A DNA stretch of 64,000 nucleotides from Edaphobacter sp. (GTDB lineage: Bacteria; Acidobacteriota; Terriglobia; Terriglobales; Acidobacteriaceae): NCBI GenBank assembly GCA_025462645.1, contig JAOAPB010000114.1, positions 1 through 64,000 on the forward strand. The letters are read 5' to 3'. The notes beneath the pieces are model-generated. The model worked only from the letters and a program-made list of their open reading frames with translations, ran no database searches and was not told the origin of the DNA. A program made the position numbers and the translations under genes. How positions within the stretch are numbered: the first letter of the stretch is position 1; each line of letters starts with the position of its first letter. This document shows, piece by piece, positions 41,801 to 62,998 of the stretch.

Positions 41801-42130
41801 CATTTCGACCGAAATGATTGTGCTTTGTATGCGCTGGTATCTCACTTACAAACTGAGTTCTCGCGACTTGGTACAAATGATGGCGGAGCCAGGAATTGAG
41901 GTGACGCACACGACGATTCTGCGCTGGGTACAACGCTTTGTTCCTAAGTTTGAGAAGCGCTGGAGTCGGTACTCTCGGCTAGTGGGTAGGTCATGGCGTT
42001 GCGATGAGACCTATATTAAGGTGAAGGGCCGGTGGACCTATCTGTATCGAGCAGTAGACAAGCTGGGTCGAACGGTAGACTTTCTGTTGAGCGCACGGCG
42101 GGATGTTGCAGCAGCGAAGAACTGGAGCAG
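41777..42130 (+). pseudogene. IS6-family transposase remnant
   Basis: The N-terminus ALDLFKGRHFDRN is in one frame and MIVLCMRWYLTYKLSSRDLV in the next, so a one-base shift occurs near 41812. Helix-turn-helix text (GIEVTHTTILRWVQRFVP) and the first catalytic Asp region (GRSWRCDETYIKVKGRWTYL) are clear. The match stops after SARRDVAAAK; the second half with the other catalytic residues is gone. Confidence 0.8.
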
Positions 42131-42204
42131 GTGGGGCCTATCGGATCTACCAGGATCCAGCCGACCTGCTCAATCATCTCGATGAGGTCGGGATCCGTAT
42201 TGTG
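42130..42204 (+). pseudogene. short coding tail fused after the IS6 remnant
   Basis: One base out of the IS6 frame the sequence reads GAGGAYRIYQDPADLLNHLD and EVGIRIVN before a stop. It looks like the C-terminal end of a different gene joined to the broken transposase. The family is not recognised. Confidence 0.3.
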
Positions 42205-42844: not shown

Positions 42845-43027
42845 TCATGGAGGGCAGCATGATTCCACTTCTCGGGATAAATGAGCGTCGAGGCGGAAGC
42901 GCTCCAGAAAGGTATTCGGTATTTCCAAGTCAACTTCGGACCCGTCGGGGCTAACGCGGGTCACGACATATTCCTTACCGTCAGCTAGAACCCGCTCTCC
43001 AACTCTCGGTGTGCGTGCCGTGGCCAT
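42845..43027 (-). CDS. small protein of unknown function
   Basis: A 60-residue protein from the ATG at 43027. PRVGERVLADGKEYVVTRVS and EVDLEIPNTFLERFRLDAHL read as a small beta-rich domain. Its upstream region is the edge of an ISNCY fragment, so its original promoter is lost. Function unknown. Confidence 0.35.
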   Translation of the reverse strand: MATARTPRVGERVLADGKEYVVTRVSPDGSEVDLEIPNTFLERFRLDAHLSREVESCCPP

Positions 43028-43029
43028 AA

Positions 43030-43698
43030 GCAAGCCAGGCCAAAGGCCGCGTCGAACGCGGGAACCGCACACTTCAGGATCGCCTCGTCAAAGAGCTCAG
43101 GCTCGCGAACATCTCGGACATCGACGCTGGTAACGCCTTCCTGCCGAGCTTCTTGTTGACCCACAACGAGCGATTTGCCGTTTCGCCTGTCCGCTCCGAA
43201 GACATGCACCGGCCCCTCTCAGTCTCAGTGGACAAGCTCACCGATATCCTGTGCCATCGCGAGCAGCGTTACGTGGGCAGCCAACTGACCTTATCGTACG
43301 ACCGTAAGGGAATCATCCTGGAACGAAATGCCAACTCCGAGGATCTGGGTGGCAAGTACGTCGATGTCTACGACTTTCCGGATGGCAGGTTGGAGGTACG
43401 TTCCAGGGGTCTCCTACTTCCCTACCGCGTCTTCAGCAAGGATCAGAGAGTCAGCCACACTGCGATTGTCGAAAACAAGCGTCTGGGCCACACACTGGCT
43501 CTGATCAAGACACAGCAAGACAGCCATTTTGAGGTAAAGATTAAGACCAACAGCGAGAAGGGTGAGTATCAGAAACGCGGGCGGCAGATATACGGGCTGA
43601 CTATGTTCGCAAAATCCCCACCAAGCCAGCGGCAGTGGCTGACCAACCGCCAGGAAAGCATAGCGTCACTCGCGGCATCTCGTGAACGCCCGCGCTGA
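43030..43698 (+). pseudogene. ISNCY-family transposase, C-terminal fragment
   Basis: The open frame from 43030 reads SQAKGRVERGNRTLQDRLVK, then HRPLSVSVDKLTDILCHREQ and QLTLSYDRKGIILERNANSE, typical of the C-terminal half of ISNCY (ISDol1-like) DDE transposases; ENKRLGHTLALIKTQQD is also present. The N-terminal helix-turn-helix and first catalytic residues are missing because a stop at 43027 closes the frame. Confidence 0.8.
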
Positions 43699-43968
43699 AT
43701 TTCCCAAATGTATGGTCCGCCGTCTGACTGCAAGGGAAAGTCAGTGGATGAAGAAAGTCTGCGTCAATGTATCCGGCCTGTTGTGTGGAGATGTCTCTCC
43801 TGGCCATGATGAGAGATACGCCGCGTAACCTGTCTTTCGAAACCCCTCGACCGTGTAAGGGCCATTTGAGCAAACAGGCTTCAGGTGCGCCGTTTTGAGT
43901 GTTCTTTCATCCTTGCTTGTCCGGTGCAGACCTCGGTGGGAGAACTTGATCTTGATGGTTACGCTTAC

Positions 43969-44209
43969 CTACGCAGCAACTGGCTCTTGAACTGCTCGAT
44001 AGTCCTGGCCACTCGATAGCACCGCCCATGCGATCCGTGCCAGCTTGTTGGCTGCCGCGACGATGAGCACGTTGCGTGGGGCTCTGGCTTCAAGAGCCGT
44101 CATCCACGCGCCCATGGGAATCCGCTCTCGCTTACAGCGCAAGACCATGGCGCGTGCTCCATGGATGAGGATCTTGCGCAGGTAGCGATTACCGTTGCGG
44201 TAGCATGGC
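43969..44209 (-). pseudogene. IS110-family transposase, C-terminal fragment
   Basis: Leftward frame reading NGNRYLRKILIHGARAMVLR followed by ALEARAPRNVLIVAAANKLA and RIAWAVLSSGQDYR. This is the terminal part of the transposase_20 domain of IS110 elements. The RuvC-like N-terminal domain is absent. Confidence 0.8.
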
Positions 44210-44213
44210 TGGC

Positions 44214-44361
44214 ATGAGTATCCCGTGGCAAGCATTCCCGATTGCGCTCGTCGTCATCGCAATTGCTGTAGTCGTTTGGAACAGCATGAAGATGCGTCGC
44301 AGACTGGGAGATAACGCGACTCCCGAGGACATTCAGAACGAATATCCCAATGCCAAAACCT
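44214..44361 (+). pseudogene. small membrane protein cut by a transposon end
   Basis: The frame starting near 44214 begins SIPWQAFPIALVVIAIAVVV, a single membrane helix, then MKMRRRLGDNATPEDIQNEY. From 44362 the frame runs into transposon end repeats, so the natural C-terminus is lost. Function unknown. Confidence 0.3.
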
Positions 44362-44407
44362 TCACCATAATTCTGAAACTCTGCGCCAAATAATCTTGAA
44401 AGCTACA
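44362..44407 (+). repeat. Mu/Tn7-like transposon end, two tandem binding-site repeats
   Basis: Two degenerate copies of a 21-23 base repeat ending CTGAAAC and TTGAAAGCTACA. The final CA at 44406-44407 would be the transposon terminus. The same outer repeat occurs at 59308-59332 in the same orientation. ThiF coding sequence begins at the next base. Confidence 0.65.
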
Positions 44408-44693
44408 GCCGGGTAAGCCCTGCATGCGTTGTATGGGCCTGGTCACCGATAACGCGCTGGCAAAGGAGGCTGCGCGGTATGGTGCAGCAGGTGGAAAGCC
44501 GCAGGTAGTGTGGCCGAACGGAACCCTCGCTTCAATCGCGGTTGGATTGTTCATGAAACTGGTCACGCCATGGGAGACGCATAAACCAACGCCGTTGCTG
44601 CTTGAATACGATGGCGATCTGCAGACAGTGGCACCAAGCAATAAGCTCGCTTACCTGCCTCCAAACTGCAAGCATTTTCGATTCTCTGAATGA
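44406..44693 (+). pseudogene. ThiF/E1-like protein, C-terminal fragment
   Basis: From the transposon terminus onward the frame reads QPGKPCMRCMGLVTDNALAK and AARYGAAGGKPQVVWPNGTL, then ASIAVGLFMKLVTPW. The Cys-x-x-Cys and the PQVVWPNG segment are typical of bacterial ThiF-family adenylyltransferases (E1-like). The nucleotide-binding N-terminal half is missing, cut exactly at the element end. Confidence 0.7.
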
Positions 44694-45013: not shown

Positions 45014-48000
45014 TTATATCGGAACTGCCGATATGAGCAATGCCTTCCCAATGCGTCCCACGGGATCGGTAACAACCAACGCGATGCGCACAGCTGGCAT
45101 TTGCGCTGCTCCTCCCGTAACAAAAGTCAGCGCCCCGTTTTCGAAGGGGAAGGGTGCGGGTTGAGGCTCAAAGTTCTTATCGTCTTTCTGCACATGGATG
45201 TCTAGTGTGTAGCGGCCTACCGCGCGAACAGATACCACTGGGCCGCCAACGACTGTGAGGTTGAGAACCCAGCTCGCGCCACCTGCTGCAAGGGCGACGG
45301 TGGCGGTGCACATGTCTTCGGTGAGCGTGGGCATGGTGGATGGGACGAACATCGCCATCGCCGGGGCTGAGGGGAGGCTGGCTACTGCGGGAGCATCTTC
45401 GCGCTGCGACGGCTGGGTAGGCTCGATGCTTCCGGCCGGGAGTGGAACTTCGATGACATCGGGCGGCAGGCGGCGTTCGGCGGGCATGCGCACGTCGGCC
45501 CAGTAGAACCATTTCACGTACGGTAAGAGGCCCGTCGGCGTGGGTGAGTCGTCTATAGTGGCGACGAAGTTTTCGCCGTCGAAGGCCAGCGCGCCGCGAC
45601 CGATCTCGCGAGCGTAGACGGCATCGGGCACACCGCCGCTGGCTCGTCGCAGACGCCAGCTTGGGGCGCGCGCAGCGTCGTCCGGGGGATCGTTGAACAG
45701 GCCGGGCTCGGCGGCTTTCAGCGCTACCAGGTCAAGGCCGGCTGCGGTGATGGTGATGTGGGCGATGCCGGTGTCGCCATCGACATCTACCGCGACGTGC
45801 GGGGCGGGGGGCATGCGATCGCTGGGGACGGCGATGGGAAGGAGCGGGCAGGCGGCGAAGTCCGCTTCATTGCCTCGGGGGGAGATCGGCACGAAGCGCA
45901 GGAACTGCACGGTCTCGAGCGCTCGCGGCAGGTGGGTCTGCAGCAACACACGACCGCCGGCGGGTTCGAGCGGCTTGTCGGTAAGCAGACGGAAGCGGTC
46001 TCGGAGGGCGACTCCGGCCAGGCCGAGCTGCGCACCTTCGACAGCGATCTCTGCGCGAGTGCGGCGCCTGCCGCGATCGAAGTCGGCGATGTCAAGGCCG
46101 CGTGCATCGCTCATGTAGACGCGGTAGCGCGCATTCGGAGCTCCGGCAAAGTGCAGGTTGAACTCAACATCCTCGGAAGGGCCGGGACGGCTGCTCCAGA
46201 CGATGCCGATGCCGGTCTCGGGTATCAGTGGGGCGCGTGGGTCGGCGATATCGATGTCGACCGACGCGCTGGGGCCGATGTTGCCCTCCACATCTTCGAA
46301 CCGGGCGATCACCTTCAGGCGCTGGGCTTCCATCGGCATCAGATCGGGCGTGGTGAAGTCAAAGGTGAGCGTGCCCCCTTCAAGTGGAGTTGGTTGCGTC
46401 TGTGTGCCGCCATCGAATTCGACGATTGCGAGAGCGAGTGCAAGCGAGCCCGCGGTCATGCGGGTCGACTCGGGCACGATGAGTTGGAGATGCAGCGAGC
46501 CTGAAGGTGCCGGTCCCTGGTGCGCGACACGCGCTGCCGGTTCGACGCGAGGACGCAAGGTGGGCGCGGGCAGGGGCGGGCGGGCGGGAAGCGGAACGGC
46601 GAGATCGGTGGGGTCGCCGAAGCGGCCAAACATGTCGCTGAGTGAGAGTCGATAGGTCCAGGGCGCGCCATCCGCTTCAATGGGAGTGTCGTAGACGATG
46701 CCGATGCGGCCGCCACGGAGGCTGCTCTGCGAATCGGAGACGCCGAGCATGCGAGTGGCTGCACGTGGCGGGTCTCCGACGAGTTCGTGCCGCGTCTGCC
46801 ACCCCTCAGCAGTCAGGCGGCCCAGGGACATGACGGGAGCAAGCGGTGGGCTGTCCACCACAAACTGCTGGCGGAATTCTGTGCTCGGACCTTCGTCGGC
46901 ACGAATCCAGATGGCGGTTCCGAGCAACACGTTGGGTGGGGACGGCCGATCGGGAAGCGGGGCGGCGAGGGCGGGCGCGACGAACACACGCGGAGTCAGG
47001 CCAAGCTTGCTGGCGCGAAGGGTAGCGCGGGCTAGCTGTGGTGTCTGTGCGATGAGGCGCTCGAGGATACGCTTTTCAGTGGCGTCAGGCGGTAAGGGGA
47101 GGGGATCGAACTTTTTGCAGGCGAAGACGCCCGCAACGAGAAGCGCGCTAAAGATCGGCTGGCCGGTCGCGTCCAACTGCTCGGGCAGGCTGTCGAATTG
47201 CGTCATGAGGCCGAGGTAGCGCGCGGTGCCGGGATCAAGTGACTTCATCAACAGATCGTCTTGCACATTGACATGGACCCGCTGCCAGGGCCTGCGTCTG
47301 CCGGGCGAGATCTCGGCGCCGAGAAAGGTGTGGACCTGTTCCACGAGGGCGGGCGATGTGGCACTGCCGACCAGCGTGGCGAACTCGGTATCGAGGTCGT
47401 CGCGAAAGATGCTGAGCCTTGCCTCCTCATCGGCCAGAGTCAGTGGATCGAAGGGACCGTCAGGACGATCGGGCGGGGTGAAGCGCAAAGGCGCGCCGCC
47501 GCGGACGCGATCCATCGCTCGTTCCGGACCCTCGCCGCCGACGTACCATGGCGAGTCTCCCCTGATGGGTGCGCTCAGGGTTGTGATCGGCGCCGAAGCG
47601 ACGACATGCTCAAAGGCGAGGTCGGCGGGAATGACCCAGCCGATTATGGTGGCAATGCCTCGGCCGCGCAGCCGGAGGCCGGTGATATCAGGCGCGCCGA
47701 CCACCCAACGGTTTTGCGAGCGCCGGCTGATCACACGCTGGCCGACCCGATCGATCAGGATCACCTGACCTGAAGCGGCAGGCCCACCTGAGAAGCGCAC
47801 CTCCACTCCGATGAGCTGAGTGTCGGGGGTGATCGCTTTTAGCGTGCCGATCAGCTCGCCGCCCGCCGTGTCCAGATTGGGCGTTGCCTGTGCTCGACCC
47901 TGACGGTCCGCCCAGAAGAAATCGAGCGGCTGCATCCGCAGTGCGGGCATTCTCCAGACACCCATTGGAGCAAGAGGAAATCCTATCTCTGCGGAGGGAA

Positions 48001-48100
48001 ACGCGCGCAGGTGCGTGCCTTTGGGAAGGTCGTTGTCTTCACCGAGACACACGGTGGCATGAGCGGAAAACACGTTGAACTGAGCGAACCAACTGGTCAT
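45014..48100 (-). CDS. giant beta-rich protein of unknown function, 1028 residues
   Basis: A 1028-residue protein with no signal peptide and no membrane helix. The start ATG overlaps the stop of the 1768-residue neighbour (ATGA), with GAGGAGG eight bases ahead, so the two products are probably made together. It is rich in Pro, Arg and Ala and contains several beta-sandwich-like segments, e.g. GSLHLQLIVPESTRMTAGSL, LKVIARFEDVEGNIGPSASV and RVYMSDARGLDIADFDRG. These look like fibronectin- or Ig-type domains, but no family is recognised. It is the last gene of the accessory operon. Confidence 0.75.
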   Translation of the reverse strand: MTSWFAQFNVFSAHATVCLGEDNDLPKGTHLRAFPSAEIGFPLAPMGVWRMPALRMQPLDFFWADRQGRAQATPNLDTAGGELIGTLKAITPDTQLIGVEVRFSGGPAASGQVILIDRVGQRVISRRSQNRWVVGAPDITGLRLRGRGIATIIGWVIPADLAFEHVVASAPITTLSAPIRGDSPWYVGGEGPERAMDRVRGGAPLRFTPPDRPDGPFDPLTLADEEARLSIFRDDLDTEFATLVGSATSPALVEQVHTFLGAEISPGRRRPWQRVHVNVQDDLLMKSLDPGTARYLGLMTQFDSLPEQLDATGQPIFSALLVAGVFACKKFDPLPLPPDATEKRILERLIAQTPQLARATLRASKLGLTPRVFVAPALAAPLPDRPSPPNVLLGTAIWIRADEGPSTEFRQQFVVDSPPLAPVMSLGRLTAEGWQTRHELVGDPPRAATRMLGVSDSQSSLRGGRIGIVYDTPIEADGAPWTYRLSLSDMFGRFGDPTDLAVPLPARPPLPAPTLRPRVEPAARVAHQGPAPSGSLHLQLIVPESTRMTAGSLALALAIVEFDGGTQTQPTPLEGGTLTFDFTTPDLMPMEAQRLKVIARFEDVEGNIGPSASVDIDIADPRAPLIPETGIGIVWSSRPGPSEDVEFNLHFAGAPNARYRVYMSDARGLDIADFDRGRRRTRAEIAVEGAQLGLAGVALRDRFRLLTDKPLEPAGGRVLLQTHLPRALETVQFLRFVPISPRGNEADFAACPLLPIAVPSDRMPPAPHVAVDVDGDTGIAHITITAAGLDLVALKAAEPGLFNDPPDDAARAPSWRLRRASGGVPDAVYAREIGRGALAFDGENFVATIDDSPTPTGLLPYVKWFYWADVRMPAERRLPPDVIEVPLPAGSIEPTQPSQREDAPAVASLPSAPAMAMFVPSTMPTLTEDMCTATVALAAGGASWVLNLTVVGGPVVSVRAVGRYTLDIHVQKDDKNFEPQPAPFPFENGALTFVTGGAAQMPAVRIALVVTDPVGRIGKALLISAVPI

Positions 48101-51100
48101 AACGCCTCCTCGGCAAAGCTCGGTTGCAACGGCACGGTCAACGATCCGCCTAGCGTAGCTGGCACAGGGCCGAGGTCGTGACAGTTGAGCTGCATAAGCG
48201 GCGGATTGCGGGAGCCGACATTGCGGACCGGCACAAAGGGCTTCGATGTGGCGAACAGCAGGCGCGAGCCGCTGCGGTCACGCAGGCTGATGTCGAAGAC
48301 GACGCCCTTGCCTGCAGCTCCCATGATCAGCGTGAGCGAATCGACCGTGAAGCGCCCAGGCCGGTGGATAGGTTCAGGCGATTCGATCAGCACACCGGCG
48401 CAGCTCCACGTGGCCGCTTGTTGCCGCCAAAGCAGGCTGATGCGGGGTTCAGTGGCGACTGGCCAACCGTCAAGACCGACGTGGTCGATGAAGGCGTCAA
48501 ATGCAGCGTCGTCGCCTTCGACTCTGGTCGGCGTGAGCACGGCATCGGCGCGCAACACGGCACCGCCCGTCGCGGTACCTGTGGACCTGCCCGAGACCAC
48601 CTTGCGGAAGTGCAAGGTGTTCAGCATCTCTGCGCCCGTCGCCCAACGGGAGGTTCTGAAGCTTACTCCCGGGAGCCGGCCGTCGAGCTCACCTTTGGTC
48701 GACTTCGCCAGAACGAAGACCTCGTACCAGGAGAGGCGCGAAAGTTTCATCGGCACCTCCATCACGACGTTCGGTGGAGGTTGCTTGCAGACCGATGCAG
48801 CGTAGGCATCGGCTTTAGCCTTCTGCGAGCCGGTGAGGAGGTTGCTCGTGCTCGCCCACTCAAGTACTGACCGTAGGACCTGATCGGGTTCGACCTCCTT
48901 CGGTGCGTCGAGCCGCCGCAGACCGCAGCAGAGCTCGAAGCCGTAGGCTCCGGCCAGCGCGCCGACGTGGCTGACGCGGAAGTAAACGCGGGCCGGGTCG
49001 TCCGCGAAGCGGAAAAGTTCGCTCTGCGCAGGCTCGTAGCCGAGCAGGTAGCGCTCGAGCATCTCCGGATGAAAGAGGTCGCGACGGCGGTGAATTTCAG
49101 TGAAGAATTCCACGGTGCCGGGACGAGACAAGGCTTCTGCCTTTGCCGTGCGGAACCAGAAGGAACGCATGATGGGTGGATCGTCCTCGAGTTTATGCTC
49201 CGCGATCGTGAGCGGCTTGCCCATGTCGTCGCGCTTGGAGAGCTTGCCTGACCAGCGCATCGCGACCTCGATGCGATAGACGCTTCCGGGCTTGAGCATG
49301 CATCGCACCGTGGAGGAAGAAGGTGAGTCGAACTGGGGCGGTTTGTCCTTGGCTGCCTTATCCAACAGGTCGGCCTGTGCCTTGGTGGCGGCATTGCGCG
49401 CATCGGCTGCCAGCGCCGCTGTGTGCGTGATGCCGGCGACACCAATCACGCCCAAAGGCATCCCGATCGGATAGGTGATGGCGAGAGTGGTCGCCTCGGC
49501 AGCGCCTACAGCGGCAAAGCGCACGGCGAAGCGGTCTGCGTCGAAATTCACGACTTTATCGGGAGACCATGCCGCGGCGTTGTTGTCGACGGTGCGAAAA
49601 CGACCGGGGGCCCACTCCTTGCGAGGAATCGCCAGCCAGATTCGCGCCTGGCGCAACGGCTCCGCGAAGGTCACGTTCAGTAGCTGGGCGGGGCCGGCGA
49701 ACTTCTGCGGAAGGTCCTGGATGGGAAGTCCGGGCGGAAGGAGGGTTCCGCCGACATCGAGGAAACCGGTAAAGTTCCGTCCATCGAAGTCGGCTGAGGA
49801 AGCGAGTGAGACGACACGCGGCACGGCATATCCGACGCGCGCGGGGATCAACTGCACGCTCAGATGATCGAGCACGAAGCCGTTAGTGCGCCCCCCCGGC
49901 AGCCAGCGCAGCTCGATCTGCACACGTACCTGGCTCTGCAGTGCATCGACAGATAGCGGGTCCGGTGGCAGCGACCATCCATCGCCGGAGACGCTTGCCA
50001 GGGCTCCCGGAGCCCAGCCGAGGCGTGCGACAGCCTTTGCCTGGCAGAGGTTGGCCTGCGTCGTGAGCGGATCGCCCGGCAGGCTCTTGCCGGCGTCAGG
50101 TAAGGCCGCGAACCAGAGGCCGGGATCGGGCGTGAGCAGGGCTAGCTCGGCCGGTTGTGCCTGGCCTCCGGCATCGCCGAATTTGCCGATGAGCCACGTA
50201 GCGCTCATAGTCCCCGGGACGAGCTTCTCGTTCGCCGGATCGGTTGCATCGAACAGCTTCAGCCCGTTCAGTTCCCAGTCATACTCCAGGGCATCGCCGC
50301 CCATCGGTTTGGCCCGAAATTTAGTTGGATAGACGTTAGCCGAGGGGAACTGCGCATAGCCTCCGGCGAGTTCGGGCGCTGTGGCGAAGGTGAGCAACGG
50401 AATTGCGTCGGGCCACACGGAGTTGATCTCGGTGGCCTCCTCGCGCCTACCGAAGAGTGGAGCGATGACCTCGTATTTATCGTTCGTCAACGACTGCGGG
50501 CCATCGAGCGGATTGGGCGGTTGCGGCAGCGTAGGGCTTGGCTCGCTGTTGTAGGAGATCTTTACGCACTTATGGATCTCATGGAAGAAGAGATCGATCG
50601 TTCCGCAGACTTCGGCCTGCAGGTACGGCTCCTGGCCATCCATCAGCATGACGAAGACGGTGGCATCGACTCCGATGGAGAAGAAGCCGACGTGGATGTC
50701 ACCGCCGACGCATCCCATTGCCGCCAAAGTTGTGGGTTGCGTGCTGAAGAGGACGTCGGCTCGGGCGAAGAGCTCGGCCCAGACGATTGGCTTGAGTCCC
50801 CAGACGGCATTGAAGCCGAAGCCAAAGGCGGAGACGAAAGTCCCTGGGTCGCAGCTGATCTTGACGCCGCCAGAGTCCTGCCCTCCCCGTGGCCACTCCG
50901 TGATGCCGTTGCCGCGGAACATGATGTAGGCGTCGGAGCTCTGGCCGAGGAGCTCAGGGAACATGGTGCTGCTGATCGGTCCACTCTCGCGGCCTTCGCT
51001 TGGACGGCCGAGGGGCGGCGTCCAGCCGTCAGACCCGAGATGAATGAACCAGTCTGGTGAACCCTTAGGGAAACGAGCCGCGACCGGTACATGTGTGATA

Positions 51101-53403
51101 ACGATGTGCGGGATCTCGTAGACACCGTCTATTGCGATCGTCACCGCGTCTGCGGGATCAATGACGACAACGCCCTTCGCTTCGAGGACTTTGACGATGG
51201 GTTCGTCGCGCGTGATCTTCACCCGCGGCGCCATCATGACGCCCTTCATGGACCCTCGAATGACGATATCGGGCGTGGTGAGGAAGATGCCTGCGCGCGC
51301 GCTAAAGGTGAAGCCCATATCGGGTGCAGTGCCGATCACAGCTTCGAGTCCGAAGCTGAAGTCCGGCGAAGGAACGAAAGACCCCGCCTTGCGGTAGTCC
51401 CAGTCCAGTTGGAACTTGATCGCGTCGTCGCCAGGTGGCACCGGTGCGGGACGGCCGTTGGCTACGAAAAGTCCGCCAAAGCCATAGATGCCGAGGCCGG
51501 TGTTTGCCAAAGGAATCGGGCCGGGGAAATCGACACCGAGATCGAGCTTGATCATGTCGCCGTCGGTCTCGACGTCGGCGCTCGCTGAAAGGTCCAGCGG
51601 GACGACAGTCGCCGCAAGCGCTGCACGAAAACCTTTTTCGGTAAGCTGTACGGCGCCATCGCCATCGATCAGCGGATCGAGGGCGATTGAGGCATCCAGT
51701 CCGCGTAACGATCCGGTTACCTTTCCGCTGTCTTGATCAATGGTCGCGCGAATCGTGGCGCCGTTCACCTTGACTGGTCCGAGGTTGAGCTTGAAGCGTA
51801 GGTCCACCTCGATCCAGAATGAGCCGCGGCCCGAGCGCGTGCCGAGAACGTCAAAGAGGTTGTCGAGCCCCTTCACCTTCCAGCCGCCGGGGTCTTCGAC
51901 CTCGAGGGAGCTCTTAGTGTAGTCGAGGCTGATCATATCGAGCCCGCTCTGCGCCGTGTCGATGGTCAGCACCACTTCACGAACACGTACACGCAGCGGC
52001 TGGTTGGGATTCATGTTGACGGCGAGCACCTCGACGTCGATGCCGGTGACGACCGCTGCGACCGAGTAGTCGATCTTCAGCTTCACCGGCCCACCGACCG
52101 GCGCAGAGGTGCCACTGGTGAGGATCTCAGCGCGATGCATCACAAGTTGACCTGCATCGAGAAAGCTGCTCAGCCCAACGGCGGCAGTGAGCAGGGTATG
52201 CAGAGCGGGGCCACCACCGTTAGCGACGAGCGCCGTGGCAACTGTGGCCGCAGTAACGGCAATCTTGGCTCCAAGTCCTCCGACGGCGCTGTCGATCTTG
52301 ACCAGTCCGTCGGGGCCCTGGCTCTCCACCGCTAGACTCAGGTCTATGGACGGTGGGATGCCCGGTCCGCCTGGCTTCCTTGCAAAACGCGCACGCACTC
52401 TAACGGGCTTGCCGCCGCCCAGCGTGAGAGCCCCGCCGGGAGCCGCGGCTTCGGTATGGCCGGGTGTCGGCAGTTCCATCACTGCTTCCACTAACGTTGG
52501 CACAAAGCCGTCGAGCCCGGTCGCGGTCGGGTCGCGGCATTCGATGCGAACGTCGATGCCGGGGCGATTGCCGTTAGCGGGGACCTTCGCGAGGATAAGC
52601 AGATCGATGCCGGGGGTGGGCGCGCGTCCGATCTGCAGATGCGCGTCGACGGCGTGGCCGCCGAGAAAGGGCACTCCCTTCGGGAGAAAGAAACGCGCGG
52701 TACGCACGGCAATGCCGCGCCATGGAGGCTGATCGGCGGGAGTGTCGATAACGGCTCCGTCGATCATGGTCTTATCCGGGGGCACGGCGTCGTCGGCATC
52801 GTCGAACGCAACGCCACTCGTGAGCTCAAGGCCGAAGCCCGTTGTGCCGAGGAGCACGGTGCTGGGCTCGAGGCCGAGTACGATCACGTCGTCTGGCGCG
52901 TCCTTGTTGGGTGAGAGCAATACCTCGACGCTGCCGTTCGCTTTTCCGCGAATCACCAGCCAGACATTGGCGCCGGTAAGGACGACAGGTGGAGCGCCGG
53001 GCGTCGCTTCAAGCCACTCAGCGTCTTCCGGCGGGTCGCCCCCGGAGGGGTGCTTCGTAGCCGCCGTCAGCAGGTGGCCGGGCAGCGACTGCACCAGGTT
53101 GAACACGGCCTTTTGTGGACCATCGTTGAGGGATAACGCGAAGCGGAACGCCGTGCGTGATTTGGGGGGCCCGGTCAGGGTCAACACATAAGGTCGCTCA
53201 TCGTTAGGCGCGATGAGATCCAGCTTGAGAGAGCCCAGGCTTTCGACAGCGCCTAACTTAGCGGTCCCTTCTTTTTTGTCAGGCGGGTTGGGGTCGAGGT
53301 CATCCATGAGCTGGATCGTTTCCAGATAACCCTTGGCCGCGCTGCTGCGCAACACGCTGCTCCACACACCTGCACTGTCCAATCTGGACTGAAGGTTTTC
53401 CAT
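48097..53403 (-). CDS. giant beta-rich protein of unknown function, 1768 residues
   Basis: The ATG at 53403 has GGAG seven bases ahead; a TTG at 53517 would add 38 residues. There is no signal peptide. The N-terminal 60 residues are helical (LQSRLDSAGVWSSVLRSSAA). Residues about 70-1000 are long runs of alternating amphipathic strands, including GLGIYGFGGLFVANGRPAPV, FSFGLEAVIGTAPDMGFTFS and IVIRGSMKGVMMAPRVKITR. From memory this texture recalls DUF6603-type giant proteins; I could not verify that. The last 700 residues look like separate beta domains. It is coupled to the 1028-residue gene. Confidence 0.75.
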   Translation of the reverse strand: MENLQSRLDSAGVWSSVLRSSAAKGYLETIQLMDDLDPNPPDKKEGTAKLGAVESLGSLKLDLIAPNDERPYVLTLTGPPKSRTAFRFALSLNDGPQKAVFNLVQSLPGHLLTAATKHPSGGDPPEDAEWLEATPGAPPVVLTGANVWLVIRGKANGSVEVLLSPNKDAPDDVIVLGLEPSTVLLGTTGFGLELTSGVAFDDADDAVPPDKTMIDGAVIDTPADQPPWRGIAVRTARFFLPKGVPFLGGHAVDAHLQIGRAPTPGIDLLILAKVPANGNRPGIDVRIECRDPTATGLDGFVPTLVEAVMELPTPGHTEAAAPGGALTLGGGKPVRVRARFARKPGGPGIPPSIDLSLAVESQGPDGLVKIDSAVGGLGAKIAVTAATVATALVANGGGPALHTLLTAAVGLSSFLDAGQLVMHRAEILTSGTSAPVGGPVKLKIDYSVAAVVTGIDVEVLAVNMNPNQPLRVRVREVVLTIDTAQSGLDMISLDYTKSSLEVEDPGGWKVKGLDNLFDVLGTRSGRGSFWIEVDLRFKLNLGPVKVNGATIRATIDQDSGKVTGSLRGLDASIALDPLIDGDGAVQLTEKGFRAALAATVVPLDLSASADVETDGDMIKLDLGVDFPGPIPLANTGLGIYGFGGLFVANGRPAPVPPGDDAIKFQLDWDYRKAGSFVPSPDFSFGLEAVIGTAPDMGFTFSARAGIFLTTPDIVIRGSMKGVMMAPRVKITRDEPIVKVLEAKGVVVIDPADAVTIAIDGVYEIPHIVITHVPVAARFPKGSPDWFIHLGSDGWTPPLGRPSEGRESGPISSTMFPELLGQSSDAYIMFRGNGITEWPRGGQDSGGVKISCDPGTFVSAFGFGFNAVWGLKPIVWAELFARADVLFSTQPTTLAAMGCVGGDIHVGFFSIGVDATVFVMLMDGQEPYLQAEVCGTIDLFFHEIHKCVKISYNSEPSPTLPQPPNPLDGPQSLTNDKYEVIAPLFGRREEATEINSVWPDAIPLLTFATAPELAGGYAQFPSANVYPTKFRAKPMGGDALEYDWELNGLKLFDATDPANEKLVPGTMSATWLIGKFGDAGGQAQPAELALLTPDPGLWFAALPDAGKSLPGDPLTTQANLCQAKAVARLGWAPGALASVSGDGWSLPPDPLSVDALQSQVRVQIELRWLPGGRTNGFVLDHLSVQLIPARVGYAVPRVVSLASSADFDGRNFTGFLDVGGTLLPPGLPIQDLPQKFAGPAQLLNVTFAEPLRQARIWLAIPRKEWAPGRFRTVDNNAAAWSPDKVVNFDADRFAVRFAAVGAAEATTLAITYPIGMPLGVIGVAGITHTAALAADARNAATKAQADLLDKAAKDKPPQFDSPSSSTVRCMLKPGSVYRIEVAMRWSGKLSKRDDMGKPLTIAEHKLEDDPPIMRSFWFRTAKAEALSRPGTVEFFTEIHRRRDLFHPEMLERYLLGYEPAQSELFRFADDPARVYFRVSHVGALAGAYGFELCCGLRRLDAPKEVEPDQVLRSVLEWASTSNLLTGSQKAKADAYAASVCKQPPPNVVMEVPMKLSRLSWYEVFVLAKSTKGELDGRLPGVSFRTSRWATGAEMLNTLHFRKVVSGRSTGTATGGAVLRADAVLTPTRVEGDDAAFDAFIDHVGLDGWPVATEPRISLLWRQQAATWSCAGVLIESPEPIHRPGRFTVDSLTLIMGAAGKGVVFDISLRDRSGSRLLFATSKPFVPVRNVGSRNPPLMQLNCHDLGPVPATLGGSLTVPLQPSFAEEAL

Positions 53404-53536
53404 GATCTGTCTCCAACTCGGAAAAATTAAGAGCAATAGGGGCCCGGCTGCACCGATGGTGGTTATCCCATACTTTGTCTCGTAGACAGGCGTGCGTGTC
53501 TTGATCGGTAAAGGCAAAGATGACGTTCGACGTACG

Positions 53537-55012
53537 CTACGGCTGAAGCATGGCCCCGGAGAAGATGGTCTTCGCGTCCCATCCCGTTCCTACAACTTTG
53601 CCCTTGGAGTCGGCCCATTGAACGGTGTTGTCGTTGCGGCCGTTGTCTCGAAACCATAAGAGCTGAAGCTCAGTCGTGAGGGCGTAGATGACGCCGTCGC
53701 CGCTTGAGAAGGCATTCGGGTAGTTCCAGTTCGAGGCGATGAGTTGGCCTTCGTTGACGGACCATCTGTTGGTGCCGTCGTCGCGTCCTTCGTGTCAGAA
53801 GCGATAGAGGTCGCCTTTGCCGGTGAGGCCGTAGAGCGTGCCTCCGTCGCCGGCGAAGATACGGAAGAAGTGCCAGTTGCTGACGACGAGCCTTCCTTCG
53901 CGCGCGGTCCAGCGGTCGGCGCCGTCGGCGTAGCCGTCGTGGCGGTACCAGCGGAGTTCGCCGTTGCGACTGAGGGCGTAGAGAAGTCCGCCGCCGGCTC
54001 CGATCACCTGCAGGCCCTTGAAGCCGGAGTTGATGGTCTGCCCTTGCGACTGTGCCCAGCTGAAGGTACCGCCGCGTCCATCGTGGCGATACCAGACGAG
54101 GTCGCCGTCGGTGGTAATGGCGTAGAGAACACCGCCGCCGGCTCCGATCACTGTCCTGAAGTTCCATCCCGTGCCGACGGGAAGGCCTGCCGTAGCGGCC
54201 CAACGGAAGCTGCCGTCTTCGCGACCGTCGTGGCGATACCACAGCAGTTTGTTATCCGCGGTGATCGCGTAGATCACAGCCTTCGAGTCGGGAATGTTTG
54301 CGACTGCAACGGCGGGAGCCGCCGGAGCCGGCTTGGGTGCGGGCGGGTGTACTCCGACTACGGGACCGAGGCCGATGGCGGGAGTTGCTGTGGTGCCGGT
54401 CGTCGCCGTGCTGAAGTTTGGATTTTTTACGTACACGTCGACGGAGATGAGGATCAGGGGCTCTCCCGGTGGCGGCTGGTAGTTGGGCGGCGGCGGGCCG
54501 GGGCCGTCGGGATCGATGTTGATGCCGCTTCCGATCTCGATGCGAGCCACCGTCGCGGAGCTGACAGTTGTCGGAGGTTTATATTCGGGAAACTTCCATG
54601 CATTCGCCGAGGTTGAGGGTGGAAACATCTCGTACGACGATCGATCTCCCTGAACGAGGGTGTCGACCTTCAACAGCTTGCCGGACTGCGGGTCCGTAAG
54701 CTCTATTCCGCGCAACGAGGCTCTTGAATTCTTTGGATCGCGGAAGCGTACGACGATTCGTCTGATCTCGAATCTACCGGCAGGTATCTGTAGAGGTCCG
54801 GCGACGATGAGAGGATTTCTGTCAACTGCTTGAATCTGCAGGCTGCCGCCCATGGGCGTGAGAAGAGCCTTGCTTCTTCTATCGAGACCGAACCGCGCGC
54901 CCGGAGTGAAGTATTTAAGTTCGAGCTGTGCAGAAAGCGGGGGAACGAACAGCAGGACTCCGCCCGCGAGTATCAGACTGAACGTATAACGAAATATTCT
55001 TCGCTGGTACAT
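53537..55012 (-). CDS. exported tachylectin-2-like propeller, interrupted by in-frame TGA
   Basis: The ATG at 55012 has GGGAGGT just ahead and starts a signal peptide (YTFSLILAGGVLLFVPPLSA). The frame stops at TGA 53795-53797 (405 residues) but continues in the same frame to TAG 53537. Residues about 40-270 are a beta domain and a Pro-rich linker. Then come sugar-binding blades: IYAITADNKLLWYRHDG, LYAITTDGDLVWYRHDG, LYALSRNGELRWYRHDG, LYGLTGKGDLYRF-stop-HEG and, past the TGA, IYALTTELQLLWFRDNG. Tachylectin-2 has five blades, so the full propeller needs the part after the TGA. The TGA replaces a conserved Arg (probably CGA). It may be a recent nonsense mutation or readthrough. Confidence 0.75.
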
Positions 55013-55076
55013 GGCGACCTCCCGACGATGAAAGCAAACTGAAGGCCGACAGCGATTCAAGGACGAATTTGAATTA

Positions 55077-56378
55077 CTAGGACTTGACTTGTGTGATCGT
55101 GTAGATATTGTGATCGTCATGGACCCCTTTCCATGCAATGAAAGGTAGCTCTCTGAAGGAAACGATCGCCGGTCTCTGCGATGTGCCGATTCCAATAGAC
55201 ACTTGTGAACTCCATTCAATTGATGGCTGCCCACCCGGCCCGATTGCCGCTTGCGTGAAATAGACGCCGTCGTCTCCGGGAACTCCTTGCCATGCCAGGA
55301 ACAATCGTCCATCGCCGGTGTTCACGACGGTTGGGCCCATGATACTTCCCGGTATTCCGATGCCGACCGTTCCTTGCGGCCCGTTCCCCACGATCACCCA
55401 TGATAGTTGCTGTTGAGGCTGCCAGAACATTTGGACCAACGAAGTAGTGTACAAGCTATCGTCGCCGGGGATTCCCCGCCAAACCATCCGTGGAAGATTG
55501 TCTAGACCGACACATACAGAGGGTCTATCCGCGCTTCCCGCGCCGCCGATTCGTTGCTGTGTTGCCCACGGGTTCCGCCAAGTCGTGTAGTAGAGGGCGT
55601 CGTCGCCAGGAATCCCACGCCGTACCATCAGAGGAACAGCACCTACTACCGTCAGTGACGGAGCGCAAGCGGAACCAGTGCCGGGAATTGGAGCGACAGC
55701 GCTCCAGTGATCGCCAAGGTCACTGCTCGTCGCCCAGTACAGCGCATCGTCATCTGGAACGCCGCGGATCGCCAGCCATAGTGTAGCGCCATCCCACGCG
55801 AGGGCAGGACCGTCAGTTGAAGCGGCACCCGGGATTACGCTCTGTGGCGACCAGTTGACGCCGTCGGTGGTGCGAGAATTCCAAATCTGATCATCGTCTC
55901 CGATCCCTCTCCACGCCATCACCAGGAAAGAACCGCAGACGCACAATGCCGGCGAGGCATCCGTGCCAACGTCCGCGACAGCTCTTTGTGAGCCCCATCC
56001 ATATAGAGCACGGGCGGCCTCGACGTCTTCAGGCGCTAGAGTTTCAGTAACGCTGCTGAAGGGATACATGAGCGTGCCTGGTGTGGTGGAGTGTCCAATA
56101 CCGATCGCGTGCCCTATCTCATGTGCCACCACCCCAAGCAAGCTGTTGCCTCCGGGAAGCTGTGGCACAAAAATGGCTGTGGCGTTATTGTTGATGGTGA
56201 TCTCCGAAGTCAGGTGAGTATTTCCGAGTTTGCCATTCCCGGCTGAGTCCAGGGGACCGAGATCGGCAGGGCCAATGGTGATGTCAACGGGTGCAAATAC
56301 GTTGGTAACCTGTGTAAAGGCGAGCGCTGGCACTGCCGCTCGCCAGAGCTCGAAAGCTTTCTGAACGGACGTTAACAT
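55077..56378 (-). CDS. matrixin-type zinc metalloprotease with six DD-box repeats
   Basis: A 433-residue frame. The zinc site is HEIGHAIGIGH (residues 86-96) with Met-turn LMYP (103-106), diagnostic of matrixins. After residue 130 come six propeller-like repeats with the motif W/R-x-G-I/V-x-x-D-D-x-x-Y: WRGIGDDDQIW, IRGVPDDDALYW, RRGIPGDDALYY, WRGIPGDDSLY, WQGVPGDDGVYF and WKGVHDDHNIY. There is no signal peptide or pro-domain in this frame, and no ribosome binding site; the ATG overlaps the stop of the upstream FG-GAP frame (AATGTTAA), so it is either translationally coupled or separated by a frameshift. Confidence 0.85.
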   Translation of the reverse strand: MLTSVQKAFELWRAAVPALAFTQVTNVFAPVDITIGPADLGPLDSAGNGKLGNTHLTSEITINNNATAIFVPQLPGGNSLLGVVAHEIGHAIGIGHSTTPGTLMYPFSSVTETLAPEDVEAARALYGWGSQRAVADVGTDASPALCVCGSFLVMAWRGIGDDDQIWNSRTTDGVNWSPQSVIPGAASTDGPALAWDGATLWLAIRGVPDDDALYWATSSDLGDHWSAVAPIPGTGSACAPSLTVVGAVPLMVRRGIPGDDALYYTTWRNPWATQQRIGGAGSADRPSVCVGLDNLPRMVWRGIPGDDSLYTTSLVQMFWQPQQQLSWVIVGNGPQGTVGIGIPGSIMGPTVVNTGDGRLFLAWQGVPGDDGVYFTQAAIGPGGQPSIEWSSQVSIGIGTSQRPAIVSFRELPFIAWKGVHDDHNIYTITQVKS

Positions 56379-56860
56379 TTCTGAAGGTTGGACCCCATTG
56401 ACTGTGCCTGATAGTCTCCACCTTGCTTCAAACCTTGGGGATGGCTGTTGATCAGGTACGAGCGAAAGCCAATTTGCGGTGTTCCCGGCGCATCGAGATA
56501 GTCACACATTCTGCCAGTGTTCACGCGCAAAGGGACCGAGTTTACTCCAACAATGCTGAACGGCGGTCCGATGAAGGTAGGCTGACCGGTTTCTCCCAGC
56601 ACAGTCGCCCTACTTGCCACCCTCGCCCCGTTCATGAACCAGATTTGGGTCTCTTGAGTTTGAGAGTTATGCCAAAGGATGTCCGCGTTTCCGTCGCTGT
56701 TGAAGTTGCCTACTCCGACAATGCTGAACGGCGGTCCGATGAAAGTAGGCTGGCCGGTTTCTCCCAGCACAGTCGCCCTGCTTGCTACCCTCGCCCCGTT
56801 CATGAACCAGATTTGGGTTTCCCCTGTTTGACTGTGGTACCAAATGATTTCAGCGTTCAT
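56372..56860 (-). CDS. FG-GAP/VCBS-like repeat protein
   Basis: A 162-residue protein from the ATG at 56860, with GAGGAGA five bases ahead. Two almost identical 56-residue repeats each contain TQIWFMNGARVASRATVLGE; NFNSDGNADILWHNSQ between them is the calcium-binding FG-GAP/VCBS motif. After the repeats comes RMCDYLDAPGTPQIGFRSYL and a short tail. The tail may once have been the pro-region of the following matrixin, since both frames run into each other. No export signal is seen. Confidence 0.65.
   Translation of the reverse strand: MNAEIIWYHSQTGETQIWFMNGARVASRATVLGETGQPTFIGPPFSIVGVGNFNSDGNADILWHNSQTQETQIWFMNGARVASRATVLGETGQPTFIGPPFSIVGVNSVPLRVNTGRMCDYLDAPGTPQIGFRSYLINSHPQGLKQGGDYQAQSMGSNLQKC
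56550..56835. repeat. 168-base tandem duplication
   Basis: The segment beginning at 56551 recurs at 56719, 168 bases (56 codons) later, with only scattered differences over roughly 110 bases. It encodes the two repeats of the FG-GAP protein. High DNA identity points to a recent duplication or gene conversion. Confidence 0.8.
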
Positions 56861-59795: not shown

Positions 59796-60923
59796 CTAGA
59801 GTGCGGCGATGCCGTTGAAGCCCACGCTCTTGGGAAGGCCGTCGATCTCGCCAAGGTCGAGGAGCGTGCCGTCGGTGTTGATGCGGTAGATGCTGACAGA
59901 GCCTGCGCCAGAGTTGATGGTGTAGATGTACTTACCATCTCCGCTGACGGCGATGTCAAGGTTAGTTGTACCTGAGGGCTTGGAACTGAGAATGGTTCCG
60001 GCGATAGGAGTGAGGGTACCGTTGGAACCGACGGAGAAGCCAGCGACCGTGGCCGTGGCGGAGTTGTCGACATAGACGTACTTACCATTCGGGGTGATGA
60101 CATTCCAACAGTTTCCATCGCCCTGGGTGGGAAAACTCTGGCTGATAGCCGTGATGGTGCCGTCGGCGTTGATGGTGTAGGAGGAGATGCTGGAGATATC
60201 TGTGCCGTCGGGCTGGTTTTCAGAGACTATCAGCTTACCGCTCGGCGTGAAGACAGCAGCGAAGACGCCGGGAGTGACGCTGTGGTTGATGACGATCGAC
60301 CCAAGGGTTCCATCGGGGTGAATGGGGAGGGTGTCGATGTTGTTGGGAACCTTCTCGATCACGGCGAGCGTTCTGCCATCAGGGCTAACGGAGATGGAGG
60401 AGCCTCCGGAGTGCGTGGCAGTGAGATGCACGGTAGAGTTGGGAATCTCGTGAAGGCGACCGAGATTGTCAGCGCGGAAGGCTACGATAGCTCCGTTTCC
60501 GCCCGCGTTGAGGACGTAGACAGTGCCGTTGTGCTCGGCGACGGCGACCGGCTCGGAGCCGCCAGTGGGCTCCTGGTCGACGAGGACCGGCAGTTCGCCG
60601 AGGAGATGGAAGCTGGAGATGGTGCCACTGCCCGAGTTAATGGCAAAGAGCAGATTGTGGTCCTGGCTAAGGGTGAGCGAACCTTGCGACTGGAGTGGAT
60701 CGGTGGCGCCGCCGCTTCCGCGGCCACCTGTAATGAAGCGCTCTTTCAGGGTGAGTCTGCCGTCGAAGAGACGCTGATAGGCGAGGACCTCGTTCTTCAC
60801 GGTGTCGTTCGTCATGACAAAGACGGCGCCTGCCTTGTTATTGGCCTCTGCAGCGGAAACAATTGGGGACGCTGCGCCGATTCCAACCATGATCATCAAC
60901 AGACCACGAGTTACTCTGATCAT
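59796..60923 (-). CDS. exported lactonase-family beta-propeller protein
   Basis: A 375-residue protein with a signal peptide (LLMIMVGIGAASPIVSA-AEA). The body has seven-bladed-propeller text of the 6-phosphogluconolactonase/YbhE type: SLTLSQDHNLLFAINSGSGT, SISVSPDGRTLAVIE, VFTPSGKLIVSENQPDGTD and AVSGDGKYIYTINSGAGSVS. Exported members are not expected to act on 6-phosphogluconolactone, so the substrate is unknown. It stands alone, 300 bases from the bufferin-like locus on the same strand. Confidence 0.85.
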   Translation of the reverse strand: MIRVTRGLLMIMVGIGAASPIVSAAEANNKAGAVFVMTNDTVKNEVLAYQRLFDGRLTLKERFITGGRGSGGATDPLQSQGSLTLSQDHNLLFAINSGSGTISSFHLLGELPVLVDQEPTGGSEPVAVAEHNGTVYVLNAGGNGAIVAFRADNLGRLHEIPNSTVHLTATHSGGSSISVSPDGRTLAVIEKVPNNIDTLPIHPDGTLGSIVINHSVTPGVFAAVFTPSGKLIVSENQPDGTDISSISSYTINADGTITAISQSFPTQGDGNCWNVITPNGKYVYVDNSATATVAGFSVGSNGTLTPIAGTILSSKPSGTTNLDIAVSGDGKYIYTINSGAGSVSIYRINTDGTLLDLGEIDGLPKSVGFNGIAAL

Positions 60924-61226: not shown

Positions 61227-62108
61227 TTAGTGGTCGTGTTGCTTGCAGAACCAACCTAACTCGGCGGCATGCGAAAAATATTGCTGAATCATCACCGCTT
61301 GATGGTCCGCAGTGAGAGCGCTCTTGCTAAATGCGGTCTCTAAAGCTGCACCTAACGGTATGCACTTTTGAAGAGCAGACAACAATAGGAAGGCCTCGTA
61401 GTCGATTCGTCTGTAGTAGACCGAGTTCTGAAAGCGATGAACTGCCAGGTAGACCGGAGAGCGGCGCATCTTGGGCAGACGAGCTATGTCGCTGTGCTTT
61501 CGTTCAGAGACGGCGTTGCTCATGATGTCGCTAGGACCAGCTTCCTGATGTACGGCGAGGACGAGCTCATCCACTGGATAGTTGAGGTCCAGTAACTGCA
61601 AATGAGGCTGCAGGAATATCCTAGACTCGCCGGCAACAGTACCAAAATCGTCCGCGGTCAAGGGCGGAACAGTTGCTCTGTCGAAGGACTCGACATATGC
61701 CCACTCGAGCCGCGCTACATCGAGGATGAGATCATGGCGCCGTGGTGAGAACTCGGAATGTGCTCCGAGCCATTGCGGCAGCATGGACCCCAGATTGCGA
61801 AGGGTAAAGGAAGTAGATGGATTCTCGCGGAGATATGCCAGCACCAGACGATCGAATATTTTGTCTCCCAGTACCGCATTCAATGCGGGGTAATCTTCGG
61901 CTACTGCTCCGATAACGCGAAACCAATACTGCCGGTTGTAGATCTCGAGGCGCTCAAACGAGTTCAGTCGATCATTAGGTTTGATGTAGCCAGCTACGAG
62001 TTCATGAGTCGAGCTTCCATCCGAGGTCGTTGGTTGCATCTGGAAGTCGGACGTGAGAGGCCGCATCACGTCTTCTGCCATGCGCCGCTGCAGATCGAGG
62101 AGATTCAT
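61227..62108 (-). CDS. DUF2063 (BufC/HvfC-type) partner protein
   Basis: A 293-residue protein. The N-terminus LLDLQRRMAEDVMRPL and the segment RLNSFERLEIYNRQYWFRVI, then EDYPALNAVLGDKIFDRL, identify the DUF2063 domain, the partner that binds the precursor and presents it to the DUF692 enzyme in MNIO peptide-modifying systems. The C-terminal half is a second, less conserved domain. Its ATG overlaps the DUF692 stop (ATGA), so the two are co-translated. It is the last gene of the locus. Confidence 0.88.
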   Translation of the reverse strand: MNLLDLQRRMAEDVMRPLTSDFQMQPTTSDGSSTHELVAGYIKPNDRLNSFERLEIYNRQYWFRVIGAVAEDYPALNAVLGDKIFDRLVLAYLRENPSTSFTLRNLGSMLPQWLGAHSEFSPRRHDLILDVARLEWAYVESFDRATVPPLTADDFGTVAGESRIFLQPHLQLLDLNYPVDELVLAVHQEAGPSDIMSNAVSERKHSDIARLPKMRRSPVYLAVHRFQNSVYYRRIDYEAFLLLSALQKCIPLGAALETAFSKSALTADHQAVMIQQYFSHAAELGWFCKQHDH

Positions 62109-62998
62109 GGGTGGACGACCTCGGCGGCGCTGGTCCCTATAAAAGATTCTGGCGTCTCGGGATGTTCAGAAGACTCAAGATATTGAGTCGCCTTCAGAGC
62201 CTCGGAATGCACTTCGTCGAAAGAAGGAATATTGTCATCCCACTCAAGCAGGGTTGCCGTGGAACCAGTTCTTTCGATTGCTCGCGCATACAGACGCCAA
62301 ACTGGATCTAAGACCGGATGATCATGAGTATCGAGCGTGTACTTCTCGAACTTGGAATGACCGGCGATATGGATCTGCGCAACCCGTTCTGCAGGCACGC
62401 TATTGACATAGTCGAAGGGATTGAAGCCGTGATTCTGCGACGACACATAGATGTTGTTAACGTCAAGCAGAATGCCACAGTCGGCGGCTTCGACGACCTC
62501 ATTCAAAAACTCCCACTCGGTCATCTCGGATTGGTGAAACTCCGCGTAGCTACTTACGTTCTCCACAGCTAGAGGTATCTCCAAGAAGTCCTGGACCTCG
62601 CGGATTCGCGCAGCCGTAGCTCTCACGGCTTCAAAGGTATAGGGCATCGGGAGAAGATCGTGGGTGTAACGGCCGTCGACGCTTCCCCAGCACAGATGAT
62701 CGGAGAGCCAGGGAGTCTTCGTCCGCCGTGTGAGCGTCTTGAGGCGCTTCAGGTGTTCGCGATCAGCTGGTTGCGCCGACCCAAAGTACATCGATACACC
62801 GTGTTGAACGACGCGGTATCGATCGAGTATTTCGTCGAGAATCTGTAAGGCCCGGCCACCATCGACCGTGTAGTTCTCGGAGATGATTTCAAACCAGTCA
62901 ACGACTGGCTTCTCAGCAAAAATATGATCGTAGTGAGGGACTCGCAAGCCAATCCCCACGCCGTAGTCACTGAATCCATTGAAACGATTGGCAGGCAT
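62105..62998 (-). CDS. DUF692 multinuclear iron enzyme (BufB/MNIO type)
   Basis: A 297-residue TIM-barrel enzyme of the DUF692 family, which uses two or three iron ions to modify Cys (or other residues) in a precursor peptide. Conserved elements: GIGLRVPHYDHIF, VDWFEIISENY, VQHGVSMYFGSAQP, WLSDHLCWGSVDG, LAVENVSSYAEF, GILLDVNNIYVSSQNHGFNP, IHIAGHSKFE and LLEWDDNIPSFDEV. The likely metal ligands (His, Glu, Asp, Asn) are all present. It lies 79 bases after the small Cys peptide gene. Confidence 0.93.
   Translation of the reverse strand: MPANRFNGFSDYGVGIGLRVPHYDHIFAEKPVVDWFEIISENYTVDGGRALQILDEILDRYRVVQHGVSMYFGSAQPADREHLKRLKTLTRRTKTPWLSDHLCWGSVDGRYTHDLLPMPYTFEAVRATAARIREVQDFLEIPLAVENVSSYAEFHQSEMTEWEFLNEVVEAADCGILLDVNNIYVSSQNHGFNPFDYVNSVPAERVAQIHIAGHSKFEKYTLDTHDHPVLDPVWRLYARAIERTGSTATLLEWDDNIPSFDEVHSEALKATQYLESSEHPETPESFIGTSAAEVVHP

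Follow-up and report, generated by a model that had tools for sequence, protein, structure and literature searches.

A co-inherited pair of giant, apparently leaderless genes, related to DUF6603, beside probably decaying lectin and protease genes in Edaphobacter

The closest described relatives of the genes reported here belong to DUF6603 (PF20248), whose members are large proteins, often plasmid-borne and encoded within stretches of large uncharacterised genes. The literature searched yielded neither a paper naming DUF6603 or PF20248 nor a described function. We analysed a 64,000-nucleotide stretch of an Edaphobacter sp. genome (assembly GCA_025462645.1, contig JAOAPB010000114.1, positions 1 to 64,000; hereafter the window) that contains two very large adjoining genes, giant A and giant B (Table 1). 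The core of A is distantly related to that of DUF6603 proteins, yet window A itself has no DUF6603 match, and the five DUF6603 proteins of the phylum, which score 385-467 bits (matches in 5 of 297 genomes), have partners that differ from those of A. A and B form a co-inherited, apparently translationally linked pair of giants on which no leader was seen. What the pair does is a guess on our part, while the unit itself is well supported.

Ten loci with strong matches, from Acidobacteriota, Paracoccus and Rhizobium, were compared (the window, L006, L007, L008, L010, L022, L023, L045, L046 and L047; loci carry L numbers and genomes G numbers). B lay directly after A in all ten. The two genes share one strand and abut or overlap: the frames share four bases in the window (ATGA, 48097-48100), L010 has an ATGA overlap as well, and at the eight junctions worked out the genes either overlapped by at most 8 bp or lay 1 bp apart. 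The original prediction, a note made from the sequence of the window, had described giants of 1768 and 1028 residues with a four-base overlap and no signal peptides; the lengths and the overlap were borne out, and no leader was seen on either giant. No leader-like N-terminus was seen in any of the ten strong A proteins, judged by 19-residue hydropathy windows and by eye, with no predictor run.

A scan of public genome contigs identified L010, an Acidobacteria metagenome-assembled genome (contig JABDHA010000005.1), as the closest relative, with A 83% and B 78% identical. The DNA likeness of the two loci formed one blastn block, 45111-53573, at 77.6% identity, which spans A, almost the whole B gene and some 170 bp preceding A. 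This upstream stretch has GGAG directly 5' of the A start codon, and its far end takes in the last codons of a lectin read-through frame described below. The ratio dN/dS between the window and L010 was 0.10 for A and 0.15 for B (Nei-Gojobori, dS near 1); A and B are under purifying selection. Distance matrices of the A and B proteins were closely correlated (r = 0.987, matched by 0 of 20,000 label permutations), also when L010 was left out (r = 0.983, matched by 1 of 20,000), and the A and B trees were concordant except for the placement of one short inner branch. Among 397 genomes of the order, the A core was found in 15, B in 12 and both in 11; B was searched with a profile, and seven strong B hits came from genomes that had supplied rows of that profile. 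The profile replaced a single-protein B search of the genus, which found 2 of 62 genomes, its own included, and was insensitive, as it missed the B gene beside A in G055, G044, G006 and G040. In the loci examined, A and B co-occur, change together and sit patchily on chromosomes and plasmids.

Window A matched no Pfam, NCBIfam or PDB sequence family at E <= 1. Window B matched no Pfam or NCBIfam family at E <= 1 and gave one weak PDB match (E = 0.4) that was taken as chance; none of the seven B members scanned had a Pfam match. PADLOC returned nothing for A, B or one protein of the third giant, C, introduced below. The curated Pfam cut-off for DUF6603, 27 bits, was passed by two of the eight A proteins scanned (L008, 43.6 bits; L045, 28.1 bits), the L023 and L046 proteins being outside the eight. 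A profile of the A core reached the DUF6603 proteins of L031 (Mycetohabitans, 4e-42), L019 (2e-9), L017 and L018, and did not match the DUF6603 giants of L020 or L021. Judged by these scores, window A is best described as a relative of DUF6603 and, by the Pfam rule, not a member. One DUF6603 protein found relatives on 16 plasmid records, including those of haloarchaea, Streptomyces, Nocardia and Paenibacillus. An OmpA-like peptidoglycan-binding domain (profile match to OprF, E = 4e-6) is present in long A proteins and missing from those of the window and L010. Two further observations concern the DUF6603 loci. In L017, L018, L019, L075 and L077 the DUF6603 giant has a second group of large, conserved partners (the L017 open reading frame at 11220-14150 and its relatives), common to Acidobacteriota, a haloarchaeon and Rhizobium. 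L031, on the megaplasmid of Mycetohabitans endofungorum, has in one run a DUF6603 giant, a phospholipase D (PLD) with an intact HxKxxxxD motif and a 1322-residue protein with a B-like start (GIHLRW).

A third large gene, giant C, follows B in seven of the ten strong loci. In six of these the end of the C protein matched the second catalytic half of the Mycetohabitans PLD, a member of the superfamily that includes PF13091 and PF00614 (blastp against that single protein, 7e-10 to 2e-4); the C protein of L007 has no PLD-like end and was outside the six counted. One C protein also matched an Azospirillum PLD-like protein (E = 1e-6, all-plasmid search). The Mycetohabitans PLD beside the DUF6603 giant, which gave weak PADLOC matches, mostly to DrmC, holds HxKxxxxD, whereas the motif occurs nowhere in any of the six C proteins (0/6): the PLD reads VHSKLMIVDD where the aligned C proteins read IRSTTVIVDD or similar. 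Because the motif is missing from all six, the C proteins are probably not enzymes. A stretch resembling a phage tail-fibre protein (8jov) lies in the first part of C of L045, L046, L054 and L055.

No C was present in the stretches examined from the window, L010 and Paracoccus, and tblastn of three C proteins found none at E <= 1 in the stretches from the window, L010 and L022; the window is thus without the third giant of the A-B(-C) cassette. Because Paracoccus groups with L047, which has C, in the A and B trees, two losses of C would be the simpler story.

What lies beside the giants varies. The same run also contains a gene for a hydrolase or a hydrolase-like protein in 13 of 34 superfamily loci, and its type varies: a PLD-like C in six (L006/L054, L008/L055, L023, L045, L046 and L047), a protein with SGNH motifs in L028 and L029 (three motifs by eye; Pfam found nothing), a PhoD-like protein in L017 and L075 (the archaeon Salinigranum is among the PhoD-bearing loci), a trypsin-like protein in L019, the intact PLD in L031 and an S8 peptidase, as annotated, in L084 (Nocardia). 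The 34 loci were the window, L006/L054, L007, L008/L055, L010, L022, L023, L045-L047, L028-L030, L048-L053, L017-L021, L031, L075-L079 and L081-L084. None was recognised in the same run in the other 21 loci, many of whose neighbours were unscanned. For this tally the matrixin of the window was counted as not in the run, and L053 was used as a locus. L080, which holds the Azospirillum PLD, was outside the 34, its stretch having no annotated DUF6603 gene.

The core of A was modelled with AlphaFold. Within residues 420-949, ten-residue blocks ranged from 43 to 88 in predicted local distance difference test (pLDDT) score and reached at least 60 in 40 of 53 blocks. The predicted strands (Table 1) are mostly joined by short turns, and hydrophobic and polar residues alternate along them more strongly than in shuffled sequences (3.03 vs 1.58, standard deviation 0.23; 0 of 2000 shuffles as high), a value taken over 27 strands, the short strands 407-410 and 431-435 being left out of the 29 present. 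The nearest solved folds in Foldseek and VIA-align were LptD, SlpA, ushers and porins, all at low template modelling (TM) scores and high root-mean-square deviation (rmsd); the best VIA-align match had Z 14.7 at an rmsd of 9.7 Å, and 7zgx_A had Z 11.6 at 5.6 Å over 260 residues. Homology of A to porins or LptD was considered and rejected on account of these scores, and the matches were read as a shared long-strand meander. AsmA and VPS13 families were not near the top of the fold lists, which exclude nothing. B has a fibronectin-III-like stretch, recognised by eye only.

Our tentative proposal, which we consider possible and rather less than probable, is that A and B together make a scaffold of two leaderless giants, the C-less form of a mobile, DUF6603-related A-B-C cassette, and that this scaffold serves an exchangeable module slot. 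A and B would form one large beta-rich complex, in which the amphipathic core of A would offer an extended hydrophobic surface or groove, B would be the outer scaffold, and the OmpA-like domain of full-length A forms would hold the complex to peptidoglycan. The neighbouring slot would hold an exchangeable hydrolase or hydrolase-derived binding module (a motif-less or live PLD, an SGNH-like protein, PhoD, a trypsin-like protein or S8), which the complex would position on a target in the envelope, possibly a lipid; in this genome the module would have been lost.

Several results weigh against this proposal. Since both C and the OmpA-like part are missing from the window, the anchoring proposed above cannot apply to it, and no export route is visible for A-B. 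A recognised module was present in only 13 of the 34 loci, and hydrolases are common genes; the slot is suggestive only. The link of C to PLD is weakened: an earlier C profile matched PLD in PDB (1e-10), a match that was set aside as not independent because its alignment held the true Mycetohabitans PLD, and a profile built from just the six C proteins found no PLD in PDB at E <= 1. That C-only profile instead matched the phage tail-fibre protein (E = 7e-7) in the first part of C, with one further match at chance level, and one C protein alone found nothing in PDB. The A model averages a moderate pLDDT of 54.7 over residues 380-1575 (16 sequences), and the B model, at a mean of 36, is unusable. 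Finally, only five of the order-wide B hits lie beyond the genomes that supplied the profile and so serve as a test; four are in genomes with A (G232, G516, G615 and G673), and the fifth, in G532, is weak (E = 6.6e-5) and in a genome without an A match. The order-wide A and B searches scored two to three candidates per genome, so that genomes can be missed, and B-like open reading frames beside A in G036 (L049) were indeed missed.

A broader form of the same idea is doubtful. It holds that DUF6603-type giants may be the fixed scaffold of an undescribed mobile multi-giant system that spans bacteria and haloarchaea, carries an interchangeable module and acts on envelopes or other cells; the window would then be a stripped A-B, with the matrixin and lectin genes next to it as decayed local payload.

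Among the alternatives to a scaffold, the one that survives best, itself unlikely, makes A a bridge-like lipid carrier whose core would be a long hydrophobic beta groove like those of AsmA, TamB and VPS13, with the PLD-like, SGNH and PhoD neighbours binding or editing lipids. A resembles those proteins in being very long and beta-rich with alternating strands; the strong hydrophobic/polar alternation of its 25 long strands suits a groove, PLD, SGNH-like and PhoD proteins are typically lipid or phosphodiester enzymes, and Foldseek placed LptD first and ApoB100 at rank 39. The same Foldseek lists, however, gave TM-scores of 0.06-0.21 by query at high rmsd, A has no sequence match to the AsmA/TamB/VPS13 group (the Pfam scans of eight A proteins found neither AsmA nor VPS13), and its fold is predicted only. 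The meander may be the default product of a 16-row alignment, and the weakened PLD link of C counts here too.

Another reading, also unlikely, would have A, B and C build a secreted particle, a tail-like assembly or a fibre with which to bind other cells. The tail-fibre match of C to a solved, putative tail-fibre protein favours such a role, as do the top five Foldseek matches to viral models, which include a tail fibre and a fibronectin protein, and annotated baseplate genes about 9-13 kb upstream of a DUF6603 gene in Paenibacillus. The tail-fibre-like stretch, however, covers about 90 of some 1100 C residues, occurs in four of the six C proteins and is absent from the other two, and the top five viral matches had TM-scores of 0.06-0.11 by query with rmsd of 28-59 Å. 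A had no match among 50,697 phage records and was not found in viral contigs, inspection by eye of the genes flanking the strong loci revealed no sheath, tube or baseplate gene (some of these neighbours were Pfam-scanned), and the window has no C.

A reading of A as a giant beta-barrel of the outer membrane, with its OmpA-like domain attaching it to peptidoglycan, is very unlikely. The solved look-alikes of the model are LptD, SlpA, ushers and porins, long A proteins have the OmpA-like domain, and one record is annotated 'outer membrane protein'; these structure matches are poor superpositions, however, and a true barrel is improbable because no leader was seen in the ten strong A proteins and because haloarchaea, Streptomyces and Paenibacillus, which are without such a membrane, also have DUF6603 relatives (an indirect argument).

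The original prediction had instead joined A and B to three genes on their 5' side, in an operon whose FG-GAP protein, matrixin, lectin and two giants would act jointly at the cell surface or in contact with polysaccharide or other cells. Five open reading frames on one strand, closely spaced, are indeed present at the positions it gave. The tachylectin-like identity of the lectin is secure (Tachylectin, PF14517, E = 6.6e-26, 91.9 bits against a cut-off of 29.8), as is that of the matrixin, whose M10 match (E = 3.7e-14, 53.3 bits against a cut-off of 24), zinc site (HEIGHAIGIGH, of the form HExxHxxGxxH) and six D-D boxes (residues 155, 203, 252, 299, 362 and 415) were all recovered. That they form an operon, and that all of them are intact, was not confirmed. 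The lectin frame is cut by an in-frame TGA at 53795-53797 and stays open for 85 codons further, to 53537, with lectin-like sequence carrying on in the same frame, so that the five-bladed propeller has no intact frame; the lectin is probably a pseudogene, and 391 bp separate its TGA from A. The M10 match of the matrixin begins at profile position 26, the first 25 positions being missing, and the 41 open codons upstream of its ATG contain no ATG, GTG or TTG; its N-terminus, and with it any leader, is therefore missing. For the FG-GAP protein the open reading frame is there, while its FG-GAP matches fall under the Pfam cut-offs; its two 46-codon repeats are identical at 121 of 138 nucleotides and may reflect either a recent duplication or the remnant of a longer repeat protein.

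Lectin and matrixin were also sought elsewhere. Of the 25 loci searched, the 24 other than the window contained no homologue of either near A (open reading frames of at least 100 residues, E <= 1e-3, within fetched stretches of 16-31 kb, genes beyond these being uncovered), the nine other strong loci among them; L051 holds an FG-GAP protein of the pro-kumamolisin type. Within the genus, matrixin matches occurred in 7 of 62 genomes, its own included, the others covering only parts after the protease domain, and lectin matches in 6 of 62, its own included; the lectin match of G040 lies 714 kb from A, and the propeller match of G055 is on a different contig from A. In L010, a stop codon lies just upstream of A, and the 39 nucleotides that run up to it resemble the lectin end (29 of 39; KTILSGAALKP against KTIFSGAMLQP, tblastn E = 0.07). 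The rest of that genome yielded no lectin sequence, an empty answer that is weak evidence. All that L010 keeps of the lectin may be its final 11 codons. A lectin gene may therefore once have adjoined A in the two lineages and decayed in each of them, with A and B retained, and the lectin-A neighbourhood may be old in the lineage; alternatively, the match could reflect a conserved promoter overlapping the gene end. A lectin possibly reduced to 11 codons while A and B stay selected counts against a joint role with the lectin and protease. A test on co-occurrence had been attached to the claim, and its outcome is mixed: no case was seen of one giant without the other, in line with the claim, and the giants do occur apart from the lectin and protease genes, against it. 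With the lectin interrupted here, the matrixin truncated and neither found near A elsewhere, joint action of the five genes is most unlikely and largely refuted; lectin and protease look like decaying local neighbours and are not part of the A-B unit. Transposase debris and broken neighbour genes might suggest that a mobile element carries the pair along as idle, decaying cargo, which is scarcely credible for two giants that are open throughout and under purifying selection (dN/dS 0.10-0.15).

Table 1. Features of the A-B locus in the window and its immediate surroundings
Feature	Coordinates	Strand	Remarks
Giant B	45014-48100	-	1028 aa; start codon in ATGA overlap with A
Giant A	48097-53403	-	1768 aa from ATG 53403; diverged DUF6603 relative; leader not seen
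Core of A (residues 419-954)	50542-52149	-	25 predicted beta strands of 9-17 residues; hydrophobic/polar alternation
Stretch upstream of A, kept in L010	53404-53573	-	blastn block and alignments
Tachylectin-like lectin, in-frame TGA	53795-55012	-	leader-like N-terminus; probably pseudogene; outside A-B unit
Matrixin (M10) with six-box propeller-like part	55077-56378	-	N-terminus missing; neighbour, outside A-B unit
Two FG-GAP-like repeats, remnant open reading frame	56372-56860	-	neighbour, outside A-B unit
DDE_Tnp_IS240 transposase fragment	41814-42185	+	left of A-B pair

The mobile-element debris that had been described around the locus includes the IS240-type DDE fragment of Table 1. In addition, the sequence at 43000-44500, left of B, looks by eye like a transposase tail followed by or mixed with integrase remnants, consistent with an acquired segment. 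Further to the right, at 61227-63374 on the minus strand, lies a probable bufferin-type operon, which comprises a multinuclear non-haem iron-dependent oxidative (MNIO) enzyme of the MbnB/TglH/ChrH type (62105-62998, E = 2e-107), a DUF2063 protein (61227-62108) and, just upstream of these two, a 98-residue cysteine-rich open reading frame (63078-63374) with CKGKNDCKGQGG-type repeats and a leader-like start. A lactonase-type seven-bladed propeller protein (59796-60923, minus strand) adjoins this operon.

A core matches were present in 6 of 62 genomes of the genus, its own included, and on plasmids of two Alphaproteobacteria, Paracoccus aminophilus and Rhizobium tropici; more distant A relatives were drawn from the genus, phylum, order and plasmid searches. 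This patchy spread, together with the plasmid matches, fits acquisition, as had been thought probable from the window. Genes of this size (3-8 kb) that remain intact, are co-inherited and apparently move across phyla must be both costly and useful. Rhizobium tropici CIAT 899 is a well-studied strain, and its three-gene cassette makes the system directly testable. If the exchangeable slot holds up, these giants would represent a new class of protein machine, in which a constant scaffold is combined with a variable tool.

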